Source of the DNA: Promethearchaeota archaeon
Lineage (GTDB): Archaea > Asgardarchaeota > Lokiarchaeia > Sigynarchaeales > SOKP01
Assembly (NCBI GenBank): GCA_016839845.1
Contig: JAEOTL010000517.1
Location: forward strand, 1 to 13,503
Reading direction: 5' to 3'
DNA: 13,503 nucleotides
Shown piece by piece: positions 1,848 to 13,411 of the stretch (position 1 is its first letter; each line of letters starts with the position of its first letter). The translations under genes were made by a program, and so were the position numbers. The notes below the pieces were generated by a model. That model was not told where the DNA came from. It saw only the letters and a list, made by a program, of their open reading frames with translations, and did no database searches.

Positions 1848-3905
1848 TTACGGTAGAGTCGAAATCTCAGGACGTTTCTTAATGAAGATTTCTGTTATTA
1901 AGGATTCTAAGGGAGGATTTTCCTTTAATTCTATGCTTTGATGCGTTTTATTAAAATCTTCAAAAGTTCGCCATATAGAGGGCGTATTTTGTACTCGATG
2001 AGCCAACTGAATAAGTTTTTGTTTAGCAGCGTACGATTGCCCCTTGAATAAATAGCACACTTTGAAAGAGCCAATCGAATCCATTATCAATATATACTCC
2101 CCAAACTTAGCCCGATCAAGTCCTTTAGAGAAGACAGTTTCACTGAAAGTATTAAAAGCAGTGAGAAAGTTACTGATGAATCCATCTTCAACTGAAAATT
2201 TTTCAGTAAAAAGATTAGAAAATACAGGGATTCCTCCCTCGGCTATGATTAAAAGTAATACAGGTTCTTCTTCCACTAATTCTGGAGGTTCTACAGCGCG
2301 AGTCCCTTGTAATCGACTAATAACATCATCAATGGAAGCAAATTTAATACGATCCGATATTTTAGCTTTTCTCCTCTTAAGAGCTTGCCATTCTTCTATT
2401 TGATCCAATAATTTATCATGTTCACTTGATGTTTTTCTCGCTAACAACTGAAGACCATGCGATTCAGCAATAAATTGAGCTTGAACTAATAATTGTTTCG
2501 CCTCATTAATATCAAGTCGTATCAGTGCTAATTTTGCTTGCAATATTGTTGCTTCCGCCAAATCTTGAATTGAGTTTTGATTTTTAGCGCTCTGAAGAAA
2601 TCGTTCGATCAATGGGGTTATTTCGTCTATTATCTCAGGATCATTGGATTCATCTAACTCTTCAAAGAGATAATCACAGAGGATAATCATCGCATCTCTA
2701 TTTATCACAAAAATTGTAGTATCTCCCTCAACGATTTGTTTTAAAAGTCTTTCTGCTTCAGCTCGATCACGGGAGAGTCTACTCTTTTTCAACATTATGG
2801 CTTTCGCTAGTAAATAAAAAGGACGTAGTTCATGAGTTTGATCTGTGAGTTCCCGTAAATTTTCTAAATAATAGAGTGTTTGTTTATTAGAATCCTTCAG
2901 AAAGTACGAAATAAACAGGAAATAATTAGCATAATAGCTTTGAAGAAGTGTTCCTGTTTTTTGTGAAACCATCAAGCAGCGTTCAAAATGCTTAATGGCT
3001 TGATCATAATTACCTTTGATTATTTGTATGCCCCCTATGACAACTAAGAGAGATTTTAACAGAAGATCAGATGATATTTCCTCTGCTAGCTGAACCGCTT
3101 GAGTTAGATTATCTAAAGCTAAATCCAATTCTCCTTTCTGTATGTTAATATGACTAAGCGAATGCAATATACCCACTTTCGTTCGTTTACTGATCTCACG
3201 GATGGTAAAACTTTTTTCACAGAGTTCCAACGCTTTGATATATTCTCCTTTACTGATATGGGAAGTTGCTAAATGCGCTAGACTTAATGCTATCCCTATT
3301 TGAAACCCCAATTCTTCCATAATCGTTAAACTTTTCATGCCATAATCTATGGAGGTTTGTTGTTCACCTTTCCAGGTATAAATTGAATTTAGCAAAAGGA
3401 AAGTGTATGCAATATTAATATTTTGCTCAATTTTTTCAGTTAGTCCCAAACTTTTCAATGCTAATTTTAAAGCAATATTAAATTCCCTCTTACCTAAATA
3501 AGACCACGCTTGTTTTAATATAAGCTCTATTTCTAATGTAGTTATTTTGTAAAGATTTGTTTTCTTTGGGAGAGACCTAAGTAATACTTCGGCTTTAGAA
3601 AGAAGTTCAAGAGCTTTATTCTGGTCTTCGACATATGATTTTAGAATAAGGGCTTCAGCAGACTCAGAAACCATTTCTAATAGTTTACTCGATTTGTACG
3701 CCTGTTTCCCCACTTCTGCTGCTTCTTTATTTTGTTCTTTAAAAACATGCACCCAACCTCTTAACAGAAGCACCCATAATTGTTCCTTAGGAGTGATTCC
3801 GCTTTTTTTTTTAAAGTGTACAACTATTTCAAGAGCCTTATCTGGTTTCCCATTATATATAAGTTCTTCTGCAAGGATTAACTCCTCAGGCCTAAGATCG
3901 GGCAT
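1848..3905 (-). CDS. TPR-repeat protein with C-terminal longin/roadblock-like domain, tandem copy 2
   Basis: This is a 685-residue protein. Residues 1 to about 510 are a run of helical hairpins with TPR spacing; examples of the small-residue/Gly-Asp/Glu pattern are WKGEQQTSIDYGMKSL (178-193), SKGEYIKALELCEKSF (218-233) and QKGELDLALDNLTQA (256-270). A charged linker (510-545) leads to a domain at about 546-675 that reads as two strands (LLLIIAEGGIPVFS), a helix (DGFISNFLTAFNTFSETVF), three strands (FGEYILIMDS to CYLFKGQSY) and terminal helices. That order matches longin or roadblock-type folds, but this is inferred by eye. No signal peptide or membrane helix is visible. It is the complete member of a tandem array with copy 1 downstream and a broken copy 3 upstream. 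A likely role is a protein-binding scaffold or sensor; partners may include the adjacent GTPase-like proteins, which is speculative. Confidence 0.88.
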   Translation of the reverse strand: MPDLRPEELILAEELIYNGKPDKALEIVVHFKKKSGITPKEQLWVLLLRGWVHVFKEQNKEAAEVGKQAYKSSKLLEMVSESAEALILKSYVEDQNKALELLSKAEVLLRSLPKKTNLYKITTLEIELILKQAWSYLGKREFNIALKLALKSLGLTEKIEQNINIAYTFLLLNSIYTWKGEQQTSIDYGMKSLTIMEELGFQIGIALSLAHLATSHISKGEYIKALELCEKSFTIREISKRTKVGILHSLSHINIQKGELDLALDNLTQAVQLAEEISSDLLLKSLLVVIGGIQIIKGNYDQAIKHFERCLMVSQKTGTLLQSYYANYFLFISYFLKDSNKQTLYYLENLRELTDQTHELRPFYLLAKAIMLKKSRLSRDRAEAERLLKQIVEGDTTIFVINRDAMIILCDYLFEELDESNDPEIIDEITPLIERFLQSAKNQNSIQDLAEATILQAKLALIRLDINEAKQLLVQAQFIAESHGLQLLARKTSSEHDKLLDQIEEWQALKRRKAKISDRIKFASIDDVISRLQGTRAVEPPELVEEEPVLLLIIAEGGIPVFSNLFTEKFSVEDGFISNFLTAFNTFSETVFSKGLDRAKFGEYILIMDSIGSFKVCYLFKGQSYAAKQKLIQLAHRVQNTPSIWRTFEDFNKTHQSIELKENPPLESLITEIFIKKRPEISTLP
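2146..2246. repeat. 101-bp identical segment, second instance (in TPR copy 2)
   Basis: This is the partner of bases 1-101, identical over its whole length and in the same frame within the C-terminal domain of TPR copy 2. A further block is nearly identical: 181-257 against 2326-2402, with two mismatches by my count. It covers the charged linker before the domain. Confidence 0.85.
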
Positions 3906-4251: not shown

Positions 4252-5154
4252 ATGAGTACGAAGCCTGAAAGCCCTTTACATTTTAAGATTTCCATTGTAG
4301 GCGATGAGGGAATTGGTAAAGAAAAATTTGTTACCTCATTTGTCAAGAGCCAATTTCTAGAAGAAGCAGATACTGAATCAGGCGTAATTTCTTATAAGGG
4401 CAACATTTCTATTGACGTAGAAGAGGGTGAGCAGGATTCTAGCATTTGGATTTGGGATCTTAAAGAAAAGAAACGGTTTAAAAGTGCATATTCTCGTTAT
4501 TTAGAAGATACTCATGGCATTATGTTGTTTTTTGACTTGACAAATCGTAAATCTTTTGAAAATTTAGCAAGTTGGATCGATATTATTAGAGAAAATATAG
4601 AACCTAACATTCCAATACTCCTTATCGGAAATACAGAGGATTCTAAAAATTTCGTGGTTTCACCTACAGAGATTAACAGGTTAATTCGAAAGTTTAATTT
4701 ATATTATATAGAAACTTCCTTGGCTAAAAGAGAAGGTGTCTTCGATAGTTTTTATTGCATCACCAGCTTGTCACTCGGAATTGATGTTAATAGTGAGCTC
4801 TTTTTGACAAAGGACATTATTTATTATCCGTCCTCAAGTTTATTTAAACCAATTTCTATATCTGAAACTTTGACCTCTCATGATCTTAGTAAATTAGGGC
4901 ATAAGGCTATATTTGAGAGAATTGATTTACTAGAAAACAAAATTAAAAAATCGATGAAACTAGAACTCTCGACTAACTTGGTTAAGGCTGAAATTATTCT
5001 TTCTGTTCTTTCACTTTTCTTATTTATTATAGCTGATTACCTTTATAAATCAGAAGATGATTTAACAGATTCGATTTTATTCATAACAATTGGTTTACAG
5101 ATAGCTTTTGTTGCATTGATTATTATTAGTTATATTAAAAGATATAGGAGGTAA
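4252..5154 (+). CDS. Membrane-anchored Ras/Rab-like pseudo-GTPase, copy 1
   Basis: This is a 300-residue protein with a Ras-superfamily fold at about residues 10-178, recognisable by its motif order. The P-loop is GDEGIGKE (17-24): the Ser/Thr that binds magnesium in GKS/T is Glu24. The G3 motif, normally WDTAG, is WDLKE (68-72), so the Gly and the catalytic Gln region are lost. G4 is NTED (127-130) in place of NKxD. G5 is ETSL (154-157). Rab-like context is otherwise clear (GIMLFFDLTNRKSFENLASW). After a linker with a short charged helix (about 208-240) come two hydrophobic helices (about 246-264 and 273-294), separated by the short acidic loop YKSEDDLTDS, and a basic tail KRYRR. The expected topology has both ends in the cytosol. 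GTP binding may be altered and hydrolysis is doubtful. It is followed after 74 nt by a paralogue. Confidence 0.85.
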   Translation: MSTKPESPLHFKISIVGDEGIGKEKFVTSFVKSQFLEEADTESGVISYKGNISIDVEEGEQDSSIWIWDLKEKKRFKSAYSRYLEDTHGIMLFFDLTNRKSFENLASWIDIIRENIEPNIPILLIGNTEDSKNFVVSPTEINRLIRKFNLYYIETSLAKREGVFDSFYCITSLSLGIDVNSELFLTKDIIYYPSSSLFKPISISETLTSHDLSKLGHKAIFERIDLLENKIKKSMKLELSTNLVKAEIILSVLSLFLFIIADYLYKSEDDLTDSILFITIGLQIAFVALIIISYIKRYRR

Positions 5155-5228
5155 TTAAGTAGGGATCTACCTTTAACCCATGTCTAAATAAAGATTATAA
5201 CTTAGGATGTAAATAATATAAGAGTAAT

Positions 5229-6209
5229 ATGATTATGACGACAAAAGTGGAGAGTCCTCTATTATTTAAAATATCCATATTAGGCGATGAAGGAATTGGT
5301 AAAGATAAGTTTATTAATTTATTCACCACAAACCAATTTCTAAAAGAATCAGATTCAGGATTAGGGGTTGCTTTTTACAAAGGTAGCATAACATTAGAAA
5401 TAGAAAAGGGTGAACAAGAGTGCATTATTTGGATATGGGATCTTAAGGAACGAGAGCGATTTAGGAGGTTGCATTCTCGTTATTTGAGAGGAACTAATGG
5501 CGTTATGTTATTTTTTGACTTAACAAATCGACCATCATTTAACAAGTTACTTAGTTGGATTGAGATCATTAAAAATAACATCGATCCAGAAATCCCTATT
5601 CTTCTTGTAGGGAATAAAGAGTCGGTCAAAAAAATTGTAGTTTCTCCAAATGAAATTAACACTATTGTTCGCAAATTTAATTTATACTACATTGAAACAT
5701 CCTTAACAACAAAAGAAGGCATTTTTGACAGTTTTTATTGTATAACTAGCTTATCTCTTGGAGTAGAAGTCGATAATGAACTTTTCATGTCAAAAGATAT
5801 CATTTATTATCCACGAGCAAATCCTTTAATAGCACATTCTTCTCCATTACTTTCCTCAAAGGATCTTAGCAATATGAGTCAGAAGATCATTTTTAAAAAA
5901 TTCGATTCATTAGAAAAAACTTTTGAGAAATCAACCCAAATTAAAATCCCACTTAAAATGCTTATAAGTCAGGTTATCTTAGCAATTGGTGTCCTTGGAT
6001 TTTTTATTGTTATACATTTTATACATGCTCTAAGTCGAGAAGTTTTTGAGGCAAAAGGAGTATACCCGAGATTCTGTTTTCCTACTTATGCAACATGTTA
6101 CCCACTCCATGAGTTAATCCCAGTTCTTTTTTTTCTAACAATTATTATGCAAATCGTAGCTATGCTCCCGATCATTCTCAGTTATTTTAAACACCGAAAA
6201 TCAAAATGA
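5229..6209 (+). CDS. Membrane-anchored Ras/Rab-like pseudo-GTPase, copy 2
   Basis: This is a 326-residue paralogue of the gene at 4252. The true start is probably the second ATG at 5235, because MTTKVESPLLFKISILGDEG then aligns residue for residue with copy 1. Numbered from 5229, the P-loop is GDEGIGKD (19-26) with Asp at the magnesium Ser/Thr position. G3 is WDLKE (70-74), G4 is NKES (129-132) and G5 is ETSL (157-160). So it has lost the Asp of NKxD where copy 1 lost the Lys. Two membrane helices lie at about 244-266 and 296-318. The extracytoplasmic loop is longer than in copy 1 (about 30 residues) and carries two cysteines (C283 and C290) that could form a disulfide. The tail KHRKSK is basic. 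The gene converges with the nucleotidyltransferase gene, leaving a 26-nt gap. Probably a signalling or trafficking protein; its partner is unknown. Confidence 0.85.
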   Translation: MIMTTKVESPLLFKISILGDEGIGKDKFINLFTTNQFLKESDSGLGVAFYKGSITLEIEKGEQECIIWIWDLKERERFRRLHSRYLRGTNGVMLFFDLTNRPSFNKLLSWIEIIKNNIDPEIPILLVGNKESVKKIVVSPNEINTIVRKFNLYYIETSLTTKEGIFDSFYCITSLSLGVEVDNELFMSKDIIYYPRANPLIAHSSPLLSSKDLSNMSQKIIFKKFDSLEKTFEKSTQIKIPLKMLISQVILAIGVLGFFIVIHFIHALSREVFEAKGVYPRFCFPTYATCYPLHELIPVLFFLTIIMQIVAMLPIILSYFKHRKSK

Positions 6210-6235: not shown

Positions 6236-7018
6236 TTATAAATCTCCTACGTATGGTTTCCCATCAATCCAAGCCCATTCAGAATCGATCAAGAATCTTA
6301 TTGCCCAAAACTCGGAGGAATGCCATTTTTTAAATCCCTTGATTGCATCAAAAAGAGTTTTTGCATTTTCAGAATTTTTTTTCTTCAGAAGAGTGTTTAT
6401 TAACCGCATGAGGTTTTCAGGCTTATCAGGTGCTTTTTCTAAAGTTTGCATAAATAATTTGTGAAAAGGATACAAGATTTCATTGTGCTCAAGGATAAGT
6501 CGTCCCCCGAATAAGATAAGATCAGTTACCGCTCTGGTTAATAAATATTCATCATTTCTTCTCTCTGCTTCTGTAATCATCCAATTAGCGGTTTCAAATT
6601 GTGCGAGGAATTTTGCGATCTTTTCTTCTTTTTCTTCTTTTTGAAATACTGGAATCCTTTTGAGCAGATCCTCAAGTTCGGGGATTTTTGAGTATGCGAT
6701 CCAAGATTCCCTAAACGCATCCCTGGCGGTTTCACTCCCTCTTTCTGCTACTGTCTTTAAAAACTCAATGTTTACAACCTTTCCATCTATATAACCTCCT
6801 GGATAATCGCAAAACTTTGTCTCATAATAAAGATACGTACTCCGCTTTTTTCGTTTCTCAAATTCTTCATCAGTAGCAACAAGAGTGACATCAATGTCAG
6901 AATCTTCTCGCTCCATACCTTTTGCGACCGACCCCCCTATTATCAAGGCTAAAAATCTCTCGTCTTGTTTAATACTTTCAACTAATTTCTCTATAGCTAA
7001 TTTATGATGTGGTCTCAT
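6236..7018 (-). CDS. Aminoglycoside-nucleotidyltransferase-like protein (pol beta superfamily)
   Basis: This is a 260-residue protein. The N-terminal domain has the nucleotidyltransferase signature GGSVAKGMEREDSDIDV (28-44): Gly29-Ser30 bind the nucleotide, Asp41 and Asp43 are the expected metal ligands, and Glu85 in VVNIEFL is the likely third carboxylate. A helical C-terminal domain (about 120-260) follows, as in kanamycin-nucleotidyltransferase-like enzymes. The predicted chemistry is transfer of a nucleotide from NTP to a small molecule or other acceptor; the substrate cannot be told. The C-terminal pattern (YPFHKLF, APDKPENLMRLI, IDSEWAWIDGKPYVGDL) resembles, from memory, a family common in Firmicutes, so acquisition from bacteria is plausible. 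A purine-rich GGGGAAG lies about 10 nt before the ATG and may be a Shine-Dalgarno site. The gene is divergent from the one at 7134. Confidence 0.8.
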   Translation of the reverse strand: MRPHHKLAIEKLVESIKQDERFLALIIGGSVAKGMEREDSDIDVTLVATDEEFEKRKKRSTYLYYETKFCDYPGGYIDGKVVNIEFLKTVAERGSETARDAFRESWIAYSKIPELEDLLKRIPVFQKEEKEEKIAKFLAQFETANWMITEAERRNDEYLLTRAVTDLILFGGRLILEHNEILYPFHKLFMQTLEKAPDKPENLMRLINTLLKKKNSENAKTLFDAIKGFKKWHSSEFWAIRFLIDSEWAWIDGKPYVGDL

Positions 7019-8537: not shown

Positions 8538-9095
8538 ATGACTAAACTATTTTATACTACTTTTCCATCCCTTTTCGACTCTTTTACTATAGTGTGGAAA
8601 GATTCAGAGTCAGAATTAGACATACACCGTATCTATCTTAGTGATCCTGAATCCATATCTGAAGTTAAAGCTACATTATCTATAAAAGGAATCAAGTCAA
8701 AATCATCTTCAGCAATTTCTTCACTTGGGAAGAAAATTCAACTCTTCTTTAAAGGAGAAGATATAAAATTCGACTTAAGGATATGTAATTTTGATGGATG
8801 TACTGAAATTCAAAAAAAGGTGCTGTTAGCAGAATTTGGTATCCCTAGAGGGTGGATTAGCACTTACAAGAGGATTGCTGTAAAAATTGGCATTCCAAAT
8901 GGTGCTAGAGCCGTTGGAAATACCCTTGCCAGAAATCCTTTCCCGATTATAATTCCCTGCCATAGAGCAATAAAATCAAGTGGAGAACTTGGTGGATATC
9001 AGGGTGGGATTGAAATGAAACGGAAACTGTTAGAATCAGAAGGACTAGAATTTTCTGTCAAGGGGAAAGTAATTACAGAAAAAATTTACTATTAA
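8538..9095 (+). CDS. ogt: Methylated-DNA-protein-cysteine methyltransferase
   Basis: This is a 185-residue O6-alkylguanine-DNA alkyltransferase, which repairs O6-alkylguanine by moving the alkyl group irreversibly onto its own cysteine. The active site is IPCHRAI (139-145) with Cys141 as acceptor and His142-Arg143 after it; Glu168 in ESEG is the expected helper. Upstream is the DNA-binding part, GIPRGWISTYKRIA (101-114), and ARAVGNTLARNP (123-134) with Arg124 as the base-flipping arginine finger. The first 85 residues are the variable N-terminal domain and lack recognisable metal-binding cysteines. The length is normal. A weak TATA-like TAATTATA (8511-8518) lies about 24 nt before the ATG, so it may have its own promoter or be read through from the nitroreductase gene. 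It converges with the TPR gene at 9128. Confidence 0.93.
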   Translation: MTKLFYTTFPSLFDSFTIVWKDSESELDIHRIYLSDPESISEVKATLSIKGIKSKSSSAISSLGKKIQLFFKGEDIKFDLRICNFDGCTEIQKKVLLAEFGIPRGWISTYKRIAVKIGIPNGARAVGNTLARNPFPIIIPCHRAIKSSGELGGYQGGIEMKRKLLESEGLEFSVKGKVITEKIYY

Positions 9096-9127: not shown

Positions 9128-11218
9128 TCAATCCCCAGTAATTTTACTGATAAAAATCTCATCTATAAGAGATTCTAGAGGTTGACTATCCTTCAATTCA
9201 AGAACACGGCTAGTTCGATAATATTTCTCTATAATTTGCCATATATCTGTAGCAGTTTGTAACCTCTCTGTAAATTTAGTTAATTTTTGTTTTGCAGGAT
9301 ATGTTTGACCCTTATACAAATAACACACTGTAAAAGCCCCCACAGACTCCATAAGTACAGTGTATTGTCCGAACTTTACCCTATCAAGTTCTTCAGAGAA
9401 AAATTCATCACTAAACGAGGTGAACGCTGATAAAAAACTGCTAAAAAGATCTTCATCTCGCACCCAATCATCAGTAAATGGACATGAGAAAATAAGAGTC
9501 CCACCTTCGCCTATAATTAAGAGAAGTGTTGATTCTTCATCAACCACCTCAATAGATTCTACTCTACGTTTTTGTTGTATACGATCAATAATCCCCTCGA
9601 AGGAAGCAAGTTTTACTCGTTCTGAAACTGGTGCATCCCTTTCTTTAAAATCATTCCAAACATCTAATTGTGTTAAAAGTTTGTCGTGGTCTGTAGAAAT
9701 TTTGGCAGCTAATAGATCAAATTCATGGGTTTCTGCAATACGTTGCGCTTCGACCAATATTTTTTCAGCTTCAGTGGTTTTCAACTGAATTAGTGCAAGT
9801 TTTGACTGTAGCAATTTAGTTTCTGCTAAATAAATTGCCGAATGTTTCTCATCAGCAAGTTTAATCATTTGTGTGAGTAATGGATTAATATCTTCTAAAA
9901 TCTCCAAATCATTAGACAAAGACAAATCCTCAAGATAGAGATCACAGAGATTAGCTAATGAAAGCATTTTCATATCAGCGGTAGAACCTGATTGAAATTG
10001 ATACTCTATTTTATTGGTTTCTTCTAAAATGCTTTTGAAAAGTAATTCTGCTTCTGCACGGTTACGCGTTCGACCACTGGTTTTAAGCATCATAGCCTTG
10101 GCTAGCTGGAAACCTATTTTAGCGAATCTCATACTCCGAAAATTAGCAAACGATTCTAAATCTTTTAGATACTTCTGTGCTTGCTCCCGAGTTCCCTTAT
10201 CAAGATTTACCAATATAAGAAGTACTAACGGAGTAATTATTTCGAATTTAACTTGAGGTGCTATAATTAAACTAGATTCAAGTACTTCTATTGCTAGATC
10301 GTGTTCTCCCTTTAAATGGTATAGATATCCTAGTTGATAAGAACAACGGACTAGTAAGATATCAAAATTCTGTTTCTGGGCAATCTTTTTTGCTTGGTTA
10401 ATATACTCCAAACTTTTATTTAATTCATTCTTTCTAAAATAAACCACTGATAAACTTTCTAGAATCTGGTATTTGGAAACTTCTCTTATTTCCTTGAAAG
10501 ATAAACTTCTGTTAAGATAATTTAAGGCTTGGTTTAGGTCTCCCTTATTAGCGTATATGTTCCCAATTAAAAAAGAACTTGAAGAGATACCTCCTTCTAA
10601 ATCTATTCCTTCATTAATACCTAAACTTCGAAGTGCATACTCAAGTGCTGTATCTAACTCTCCGTTACGCAAATAAACCTCCCCATAAAGTCGATAACAG
10701 CTTGCTATTAGATTTTTATTCCCTAATTTCTTCCTAAAATGCAAAGCCTTCTCTACTAATTCTAATGCTCTCTTCTCCTCACCTGTGGCCATAAAGTACC
10801 ATGCCATCATCGAATATACGGTCCCTTTAATACCAATAACATCCAAAGAAGATTTAATATCGTAGGTATCAATAAGTTTTTCACATTTAGCAAGTAATCT
10901 CATACTTCTTGGTGCTCCACTAAAATCTTTTGGAGAATATATAATATGTGCTTCTAGAATACGTGCGTAAATGGATTCCAAAATAAAATCATGCTTTTTG
11001 GCTAATTTGAAGGCAATTTTACCGATATCAACTGCATCAAGAAATTTGCCAGTAAAAGTATATATTCGACCTTTTAGAAGAAGTGTCCATAATTGATCAA
11101 GGGAGTTATGAGATTCTCTTTTCTCGAAATTCTCAACGATTTGGAGTGCTTCCTTAAATTTATTTTCATAAATAAGTCGTTCAGCTTGGATAAGATCTTC
11201 ATGTCGTAAGTCAGACAT
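9128..11218 (-). CDS. TPR-repeat protein with C-terminal longin/roadblock-like domain, diverged paralogue
   Basis: This is a 696-residue protein with the same architecture as the array at 1-3905 but clearly more diverged. It begins MSDLRHEDLIQAERLIYENK, against MPDLRPEELILAEELIYNGK. TPR hairpins run to about residue 520; examples are RNGELDTALEYALRSLG (184-200), NKGDLNQALNYLNRSL (224-239) and LKGEHDLAIEVLESSL (302-317). The linker (SERVKLASFEGIIDRIQQ) and the C-terminal domain (about 564-690) are the best-conserved parts: LLLIIGEGGTLIFS (565-578), LDRVKFGQY (611-619), VCYLYKGQTYPAKQKL (631-646) and LESLIDEIF (681-689). ATG 11218 is fixed by an in-frame stop (TAA, 11222-11224) just upstream. 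A TTTATAAAA element at about 11265-11275 could be its promoter. It lies 105 nt downstream of the EutA-like gene on the same strand. It is probably a cytosolic scaffold; no partner is known. Confidence 0.87.
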   Translation of the reverse strand: MSDLRHEDLIQAERLIYENKFKEALQIVENFEKRESHNSLDQLWTLLLKGRIYTFTGKFLDAVDIGKIAFKLAKKHDFILESIYARILEAHIIYSPKDFSGAPRSMRLLAKCEKLIDTYDIKSSLDVIGIKGTVYSMMAWYFMATGEEKRALELVEKALHFRKKLGNKNLIASCYRLYGEVYLRNGELDTALEYALRSLGINEGIDLEGGISSSSFLIGNIYANKGDLNQALNYLNRSLSFKEIREVSKYQILESLSVVYFRKNELNKSLEYINQAKKIAQKQNFDILLVRCSYQLGYLYHLKGEHDLAIEVLESSLIIAPQVKFEIITPLVLLILVNLDKGTREQAQKYLKDLESFANFRSMRFAKIGFQLAKAMMLKTSGRTRNRAEAELLFKSILEETNKIEYQFQSGSTADMKMLSLANLCDLYLEDLSLSNDLEILEDINPLLTQMIKLADEKHSAIYLAETKLLQSKLALIQLKTTEAEKILVEAQRIAETHEFDLLAAKISTDHDKLLTQLDVWNDFKERDAPVSERVKLASFEGIIDRIQQKRRVESIEVVDEESTLLLIIGEGGTLIFSCPFTDDWVRDEDLFSSFLSAFTSFSDEFFSEELDRVKFGQYTVLMESVGAFTVCYLYKGQTYPAKQKLTKFTERLQTATDIWQIIEKYYRTSRVLELKDSQPLESLIDEIFISKITGD

Positions 11219-11323: not shown

Positions 11324-13411
11324 TCACGATGAATCATCACCTTTATTAAAGACTAAACTCTTAATAGTAATTGGGAATGCTTCACCAGAGCTGAGCGGGG
11401 CACCAATATCAATCCAGTCTCCCGCTTCAAGCTCCAATTCATCAAGGCAAAATATATTATTTTTGATGGATGTCTCACGTTTGAGTGTAATTCCCAGTAT
11501 TTTACCACCATCAAATCTCAAGATTATAAGAATCATCTTTTCATTTGCAGCAGAATTTGGGAGTGCTGACTCAATTTCCCTAGCAAAAACTGACAAATCT
11601 CGTCGATTTAACAAATCCTTAAAATATAACGCATATATGTCCTCTCCTTCTTTCATATCAAAATTATTTAGAGCTTGGTCAATTTCAGTTTTGAGAATTT
11701 TCGGGTTTCCAGAAAACTCTTTCATATCCATATTAACGGGAACAACAGGAACATTTTCAAGAGGGAGTTTAATATTTTCATCATAATAACAAGTTGAACC
11801 TGATACAGAAAGAGAAAAGGCTCCTGCTCCGATCACTGTTGCTCTGATTTTATATTCTGGTTCAATTAAGGGTACATTCAACTCACTCACAAGATTCATA
11901 ATTTCTTCAGCAAGATACATACCAATATCGTTATAGGTTTTCCCATCATTTTTATCAAAAATCATCTCCGCAACACCGCCTGAAAAAGACACTGCATCAA
12001 TCGGGATGGAAAAATCTAAATCTTCAGCCAATATCAATTTTTTTGCTATATTACTTGTTGCGGGACCTTTCATGACCTCAATTAATGCTTTAGCATATTC
12101 CTGAGCTATTGTTTTCACATCCTCTTCTGGAATGATATTACCTATCATATAATTCATATTTAGCTCTTTCATGACAACTTCACTAGGTTCATCAATTCTC
12201 CAGATCTTGAAATTTTCATCAATTCCGAGTAATCTACCTCCCACGTTGATGCATGAAGTGCTCAAGACATTTCCTCTTGATGAGATTGCTAGATTACTAG
12301 TACCTCCACCTATATCGACATTTAATATGGTGTTTTGCTTCTCGCGCGATAGATCAACGATACCGCTCCCCATTGCCCCGAGAAGAGATTCAAAATTGGG
12401 TCCGGTAGAAGCACTAACGAATTTCCCCGATTTAGAAGATAATCGTCTAACTATTTCTGCAGCGTTTTGCTTTTTAGCGGTTTCACCAGTTACAATTACT
12501 GCCCCTGTATCAACCATTTCAGGTGTAATACCTGCTTTTTCATATTCTTCTTCACAGAATTTGATAATTGCTTCGATGTCGATGGTATATCGGTCAATTA
12601 AGGGAGTTAATATAATATTACCTTCATATATGAGTTCCCTATTAACAAGAATAAATCGATTTGACATGTTAAATAAGCTAGTTTCCCTTCTAAGGGTAAG
12701 ACGTGAGAAAACAAGATGAGAAGTTGAAGATCCAACGTCAATTCCAACACTTAATATGTTCAAATATTCAACTTTAGATTCAGCGGAATCTAAATGCCCC
12801 ATTAAAAGTTCAGCCGAATAAATTTCTATTTTTTTTTCCTCGCTCTCACTTTTCATTATAGGTTCTTCTTTTGGGGGTCTTTTAATTCTGATCTCCATCT
12901 CTCTATCATGATGTTTAGGCAATTCCATTTTCTCAGAAGAATTTAATAATTTCGTTTTCACATCTGGTGGAATTTCAAATTCTTGCTTACACACTGTACA
13001 AAAATATTTCAGATTGATTTTTGGGTTACTCCCTGGTAAAACTGGTCCTTTTTGTTGGATGCTCCCTTTTTCTTCATTGATTTGCCTTCTAATTCTATCT
13101 AAAGTGACATTAAATTGCATAACTGCGATATCACAAATTTCATCAAATTCCTTTCCGGGTTGCATAACAGATGCTAAGGCAGGTTTGAATTCCATTACTA
13201 ACCGGTAAAATCGCGAGAGATCTGTCTTATATTCTTGATCATGAGCTTGAAGTAAACTTTCATATTTCTTAGTAAAGGTTTCTACTAGAGTTTCTGCCTC
13301 ATTAGGAGAAATCTTCATAAGATAAACTTTTATTGTCTGAATAATACCCCATTTTAAACTGTCAATAGAGGGAATCTTAAACTCAGCGATTCTTTTTTCA
13401 TTATCCTGCAT
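11324..13411 (-). CDS. EutA-like ASKHA-family protein with N-terminal zinc-binding extension
   Basis: This is a 695-residue protein. Residues about 217-695 match EutA, the ATPase that reactivates ethanolamine ammonia-lyase by exchanging damaged cobalamin. The ASKHA motifs are GIDVGSST (223-230, phosphate 1), DTGAVIVTGETAKKQNA (301-317, a EutA hallmark), DIGGGTSN (366-373, phosphate 2) and FSGGVAE (476-482, adenosine region). Canonical EutA is about 470 residues and starts near residue 215 here. The extra N-terminus has a helical part (about 10-112), then a putative zinc site FCTVC (C138, C141) with LPKHHDR (H167, H168), then a charged linker (170-200). No EutB, EutC or shell-protein gene is in the window, so the true client may be another B12 enzyme or none. 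The symbol is left empty because the architecture is not standard EutA. ATG 13411 gives the full extension; the zinc domain is in frame with no stop. Confidence 0.85.
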   Translation of the reverse strand: MQDNEKRIAEFKIPSIDSLKWGIIQTIKVYLMKISPNEAETLVETFTKKYESLLQAHDQEYKTDLSRFYRLVMEFKPALASVMQPGKEFDEICDIAVMQFNVTLDRIRRQINEEKGSIQQKGPVLPGSNPKINLKYFCTVCKQEFEIPPDVKTKLLNSSEKMELPKHHDREMEIRIKRPPKEEPIMKSESEEKKIEIYSAELLMGHLDSAESKVEYLNILSVGIDVGSSTSHLVFSRLTLRRETSLFNMSNRFILVNRELIYEGNIILTPLIDRYTIDIEAIIKFCEEEYEKAGITPEMVDTGAVIVTGETAKKQNAAEIVRRLSSKSGKFVSASTGPNFESLLGAMGSGIVDLSREKQNTILNVDIGGGTSNLAISSRGNVLSTSCINVGGRLLGIDENFKIWRIDEPSEVVMKELNMNYMIGNIIPEEDVKTIAQEYAKALIEVMKGPATSNIAKKLILAEDLDFSIPIDAVSFSGGVAEMIFDKNDGKTYNDIGMYLAEEIMNLVSELNVPLIEPEYKIRATVIGAGAFSLSVSGSTCYYDENIKLPLENVPVVPVNMDMKEFSGNPKILKTEIDQALNNFDMKEGEDIYALYFKDLLNRRDLSVFAREIESALPNSAANEKMILIILRFDGGKILGITLKRETSIKNNIFCLDELELEAGDWIDIGAPLSSGEAFPITIKSLVFNKGDDSS

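Follow-up and report, generated by a model that had tools for sequence, protein, structure and literature searches.

A putative tandem pair of membrane-anchored Ras-fold pseudoGTPases in Asgard archaea and the unequal conservation of their switch regions

Related systems and the position of the locus

Asgard archaea encode many small GTPases, and it is an open question how switches of this type came to be coupled to membranes before there were eukaryotes. Archaeal Rab-like GTPases are described as apparently active proteins for which a membrane-association signal was not found (PMC4915359), and Asgard Rab-like proteins and membranes are treated in PMC10933270. The pseudoGTPase domains pG1 and pG2 of p190RhoGAP, as presented in PMC5593906, are an analogue of the proteins considered here, but they are domains inside a RhoGAP. 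GIMAP2 is described in PMC8201404 as having a double C-terminal hydrophobic domain and as pairing with another G protein, in arrangements proposed to serve as membrane scaffolds; according to the same source, GIMAP2 and GIMAP7 differ from the present proteins in having a septin-related G domain, and GIMAP2 binds GTP with high affinity. Septin hetero-oligomers, which unlike the present proteins form filaments, include some members that have lost GTPase activity and some that evolve fast, according to PMC10731463. The open-licence literature that was searched yielded no paper combining Asgard archaea with pseudoGTPases, and none combining Asgard archaea, the TIR domain and GTPases.

The locus analyzed in the present work lies on a contig of a Promethearchaeota archaeon (JAEOTL010000517.1), which is related to the archaea nearest to eukaryotes; the whole stretch of DNA that was analyzed, 13,503 nucleotides in length, is referred to below as the window. 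Two open reading frames, ORF A (4252..5154, 300 codons) and ORF B (5229..6209, 326 codons), are arranged in tandem on the forward strand with a spacer of 74 bases (5155..5228) between them, and each encodes what appears to be a Ras-fold pseudoGTPase domain followed by a helical linker and two predicted C-terminal membrane helices. The flanking genes, at 1848-3905 and 6236-7018, are both on the opposite strand, so that A and B seem to form a separate unit, and no gene for a partner protein is linked to them in the window. To our knowledge, the p190RhoGAP pseudoGTPases are not encoded as a gene pair with membrane helices, and we know of no C-terminal membrane hairpin in septins.

The initial annotation, made from the letters of the sequence, gave both proteins a Ras/Rab layout, which is borne out by the Pfam Ras profile (E 8.4e-28 for A and 4.1e-30 for B). 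Rab11-type proteins are the best sequence matches of both among solved structures, AlphaFold2 predicts for each a Ras fold with two long C-terminal helices (mean pLDDT 82 for B and 74 for A), and the predicted models of both match Rab and Ras in Foldseek, as does the model of B in VIA-align; G-domain fold and profile thus place A and B in the Ras superfamily. At E-values up to 1, Pfam assigns neither A nor B to the AIG1 (GIMAP) family, and the Septin profile PF00735 gives only E 0.096 with A, which is below the family cut-off.

In a midpoint-rooted tree, A and B each form a group of their own and one long branch leads to both (100/100 for A and B together, 99/95 for A), A and B together join relatives fused to TIR, nitrilase or other domains (97/99), and all of these join a canonical family of Asgard GTPases of 540-600 amino acids, here called the N family (100/97). 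Of the N family, 8 out of 17 sequences are in the tree, which omits P0029, P0053 and P0070-P0093; P0031 and P0052 were flagged as long branches, and their placement beside A and B (88/81) is unsure. Because the A and B proteins separate in this way, their duplication seems to be older than the sampled lineages, with the B group weakly supported (81/16).

The N family (L050-L054 and L061-L072, 17 sequences in total) resembles A and B in the G-domain signature around NLYYxETS. Its examples L050 and P0073 differ from A and B in carrying GKT, TIGVDF, WDTGGQE and NKSD together with a C-terminal Cys4 motif. A membrane segment was not found in the family, members of which were recovered at E 1e-45, one per genome, from 13 of the 227 genomes searched in the same phylum. 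The TIR- and nitrilase-fused Asgard GTPase-like proteins (P0031-33, P0042-48, P0050-53 and P0072) share with A and B both the G-domain family and a similar following helix, and most of them likewise have no Ser/Thr after GK, while five retain GKT and the others do not (the set includes P0053, which is partial). They differ from A and B in that a TIR domain (PF13676) or, in P0052, a CN hydrolase domain (PF00795) replaces the hairpin, and in that those scanned, which did not include P0072, have no membrane segment. Among the PADLOC defence models, none matches A, B or P0031, and the single match of P0046 is weak (PbeC, 0.0015); P0051 matches TIR-type models (best 1.2e-9), the nitrilase of P0052 matches DRT nitrilase models (2e-13), and the TPR neighbour upstream of the pair matches a TPR model (3.4e-6). 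Further relatives (P0034-37, P0049 and P0071) have a different C-terminal domain, recognizable by QWDD..GPKL..YFP, for which no Pfam family was found in P0034 and P0037 or among the precomputed domains of P0035, P0036, P0049 and P0071.

G motifs and the predicted C-terminal hairpin

The motif counts given here refer to alignments of 28 rows, 15 A-type and 13 B-type, from which the incomplete P0012 and P0029 were omitted; the later-retrieved P0070, which is without its N-terminal half, is not part of any alignment. The P-loop of A (4300..4329, residues 17-26) contains GDEGIGKE and that of B (5283..5312, residues 19-28) contains GDEGIGKD, in agreement with the initial annotation, so that GK is retained in both and the usual Ser/Thr is replaced by Glu in A and by Asp in B. 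Across the 28 rows GK is followed by Asp in 22, by Glu in 5 and by Gly in 1, but never by Ser or Thr, and the canonical GxxxxGK[S/T] is accordingly absent throughout. The presence of Asp or Glu in 27 of the 28 rows points to selection on an acidic residue at this position.

The remaining motifs are altered to different degrees. At the place aligned with the G2 Thr no row has Thr; the 13 B-type proteins all have Gly and 12 of the 15 A-type proteins have Glu, as do the respective window copies. A Thr stands one place earlier in 15 of the 28 rows, so the loss of G2 depends on the alignment. G3 reads WDLKE in both window copies, as had been noted, which makes both DxxE; DxxG is intact in 4/15 A-type and 0/13 B-type proteins. 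The B-type G3 is WDLKERE in 13/13, while the A-type G3 ranges from WDLKE to CNIEG and RNLRE. In B this motif and the next helix form switch II (5436..5498, residues 70-90), which lies within a stretch that is frozen in B-type proteins and drifts in A-type proteins. At G4, A has NTED and B has NKES, and the earlier claim that the two copies had lost different residues of NKxD therefore holds for the window pair; it does not hold as a fixed difference between the A and B types, because the Lys and Asp positions vary across the family, in which a complete NKxD occurs in 0/28 rows and the Asp position is kept in 5/28. Every row (28/28) has GK and the G4 Asn, and the G3 Asp is present in 25/28 rows and the Ser of ETS in 27/28; given the first three of these, the proteins may still bind nucleotide or phosphate in some form.

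The proposal that each protein is held in the membrane by two C-terminal segments is supported by hydropathy, which locates them at residues 243-261 and 274-292 of A and at 244-262 and 299-317 of B. The predicted hairpins correspond to 4978..5127 (residues 243-292 of A) and 5958..6179 (residues 244-317 of B), and this GIMAP2-like layout of two C-terminal hydrophobic segments is found by predicted structure as well. The segments are conserved among relatives, as the proposal had implied: the hydropathy scan finds both in 16/17 A-type proteins, the exception being P0012, which is cut short, and in 13/13 B-type proteins scanned, and two membrane helices are predicted in all 28 aligned rows. Rab-type prenylatable cysteines are lacking, A ending in KRYRR and B in KHRKSK with no terminal Cys.

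Membrane segments can be oriented by the positive-inside rule. The mean net charge over the 28 rows is +1.1 before the first segment, -1.0 in the loop and +2.7 in the basic tail after the second, and by this rule the basic C-terminal tails and the on average acidic loop would place the G domain in the cytoplasm; the charge pattern fits a hairpin with both of its ends on that side. Two cysteines are present in the loop of 5/13 B-type proteins, window B among them, and could pair as a disulphide outside the cell. The idea that membrane helices are widespread among Asgard GTPases was also considered and was rejected, since they were found in 0/91 Ras-like open reading frames from 72 loci, a rate that is biased by the mostly canonical queries with which these were fetched.

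Gene pairing and selection on the switch regions

A search with A retrieved 41 proteins, of which 17 are A-type and 13 are B-type; the partial P0070, retrieved with B as the query, brings the B-type total to 14, and a profile search added further fused relatives. The named sources of the A and B proteins are Promethearchaeota, Hodarchaeota or marine sediment metagenome. In ten cases (10/17 A, 10/14 B) the longest recorded contigs of an A-type and a B-type protein are equally long, the sizes being 13503, 27288, 21907, 467602, 5076, 5068, 3236, 2579, 2501 and 2100 bases. Since four of these contigs measure only 2,100 to 3,236 bases, the A and B genes must be near neighbours on them, and one pair has consecutive locus tags (LCGC14_0563720 and LCGC14_0563730). 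The remaining A and B proteins may also have a partner, because each cluster lists its longest contig only.

The pair was not found at E 1e-45 in 227 genomes of the same phylum, a search in which at most 10 candidates were scored per genome and a miss is thus possible; 14 of these genomes matched at that threshold, 13 with the N family bearing GKT and one with a TIR fusion. From this distribution the pair seems to be accessory and restricted to some lineages. Nine genomes with close relatives of the EutA-like protein of the window (genome completeness not given) all match the profile at E 1e-20, with no match extending to the hairpin and the furthest, from a TIR fusion, reaching profile position 248. 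Scans with two short patterns for the pair gave 93 pattern matches in GTDB r220 contigs and 31 in viral contigs, with no relatives among either.

The comparison of window A with window B by the Nei-Gojobori method gives dN 0.34 and dS 2.03 overall, the latter saturated, and dN 0.21 and dS 3.3 in the G domain. Conservation of the family and a window dN/dS far below 1 uphold the earlier suggestion that the copies are functional and not decaying. Canonical homologues, which had been named as a possible sign of decay, do exist, but they make up other families.

The conservation of the switches was compared in nine of the ten tandem pairs, so that both sets represent the same hosts, with the pair of the partial P0029/P0070 omitted; the switch boundaries were taken from the Ras layout, and the nine-pair test was run after the entropy table had been viewed. 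For switches I and II combined, the mean pairwise difference among the A proteins is 0.460 and among the B proteins 0.101, while over the rest of the G domain it is 0.28 and 0.24, respectively. The alpha4-beta6-alpha5 region differs by 0.187 in A and 0.182 in B, and the G domain beyond this region and the switches by 0.317 and 0.262. In the linker helix (0.328 vs 0.227) and in TM2 (0.615 vs 0.433) it is B that varies more than A, and in TM1 (0.470 vs 0.525) it varies less. When two blocks of the same sizes were moved along the G domain, the observed gap between the A and B switches had a p of 0.00035, and when the members of the pairs were relabelled, so large a gap arose in 1/256 labellings, which was the true one. 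The asymmetry, which is new here, is one of aligned sequences: switches I and II of B are nearly frozen and those of A drift.

The ratio of switch difference to the difference in the rest of the domain is 0.42 for B and 1.65 for A, compared with 0.17 for the canonical N family, whose switch difference is only 0.027, and 0.44 for a canonical R set. The R set was retrieved partly by a switch II pattern, which lowered its switch diversity, and the profile-retrieved N family is the fairer yardstick. By these ratios the switch face of B is guarded in much the same way as in canonical Asgard GTPases, in spite of the lack of the usual residues of GTP chemistry, and the switch face of A is not. The ratio is 1.44 for the five TIR-fused or otherwise fused relatives with GKT and 1.45 for those without it; the former value implies that drifting switches alone do not mark a dead GTPase.

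Possible roles of the pair, and the neighbouring genes

A and B are probably an old, duplicated, side-by-side pair of membrane-anchored Asgard pseudoGTPases that is maintained by selection. The interpretation favoured here, with a probability of roughly 0.5, is that this membrane-fixed pair acts as a heterodimer in which B provides a permanent docking face and A is the structural half. Neither protein would go through the normal GTP-Mg switch cycle; the G domains would lie on the cytoplasmic face of the membrane; A and B would heterodimerise, perhaps via the alpha4-beta6-alpha5 face together with the helix after the G domain, which are conserved in both; and the frozen switch face of B would hold a partner at the membrane, the candidates being soluble paralogues with the same G domain and with TIR, nitrilase or zinc-ribbon parts. 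The proposal of a heterodimer draws only on tandem retention and the shared conserved faces. An extension that we consider improbable is a receptor made of two dead Ras proteins, in which B, through its frozen switch face, would mimic an always-on GTPase and recruit to the membrane the TIR- or nitrilase-bearing paralogues that have the G domain and helix in common with it, in Asgard defence or stress signalling, with fixed recognition replacing GTP switching. A Ras-type domain appears here to be fixed in the membrane by a hairpin and has seemingly given up its switch chemistry, with the switch surface of one partner still guarded. If the favoured interpretation is true, Asgard archaea employ Ras-fold proteins as fixed membrane scaffolds, and the two genes would offer a small, clean system for testing the division of labour in pseudoGTPases.

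It is conceivable, though rather doubtful, that A, B or both still use the P-loop lysine to hold GTP, GDP or some other phosphate ligand, as permanently loaded pseudoGTPases of class II/III in which the acidic residue binds the metal in another way or makes it needless. In favour of this are the retained GK, G4 Asn, G3 Asp and Ser of ETS, and several septins are reported in PMC10731463 to be without GTPase activity and yet to bind GTP; against this, neither a Ser/Thr after GK nor a full NKxD is found in any of the 28 rows, and the P-loop difference is higher in A (0.26) and B (0.19) than in the canonical N family (0.00) and R set (0.05). The unequal conservation of the switches could reflect two independent proteins with separate partners, which would stand together merely through their origin by tandem duplication and would form no heterodimer. 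This is unlikely in view of the ten A/B pairs on equally long contigs and of an alpha4-beta6-alpha5 region that is conserved to an equal degree in both.

Far less probable than either is that A and B are decaying duplicates of a canonical Asgard GTPase, as the existence of canonical relatives and the free variation of the switches and G3 of A might suggest. The identical loss of G1 and the hairpins are seen in 28/28 rows, and we take decay to be refuted for the pair as a whole by the open frames, by a window dN well under dS and by the frozen switches of B.

The other genes of the window include three that encode paralogous TPR proteins with a common C-terminal stretch (3-1769, truncated by the end of the window, 1848-3905 and 9128-11218, all on the reverse strand); in the two of the three that were scanned, this stretch matches no Pfam family above cut-off, and it looks like a longin- or roadblock-like candidate. 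An alkylguanine-DNA alkyltransferase domain (PF01035, 3.6e-27) with a PCHR motif is encoded at 8538-9095 on the forward strand. The EutA-like protein (11324-13411, reverse strand) has an N-terminal extension of about 217 amino acids ahead of its EutA match; proteins from two genomes of the phylum that includes the Lokiarchaeota loci match it at 77 and 81% identity, by which the genes around the pair mark the host as an Asgard archaeon, and a relative is present in 101 of the 227 genomes of that phylum.
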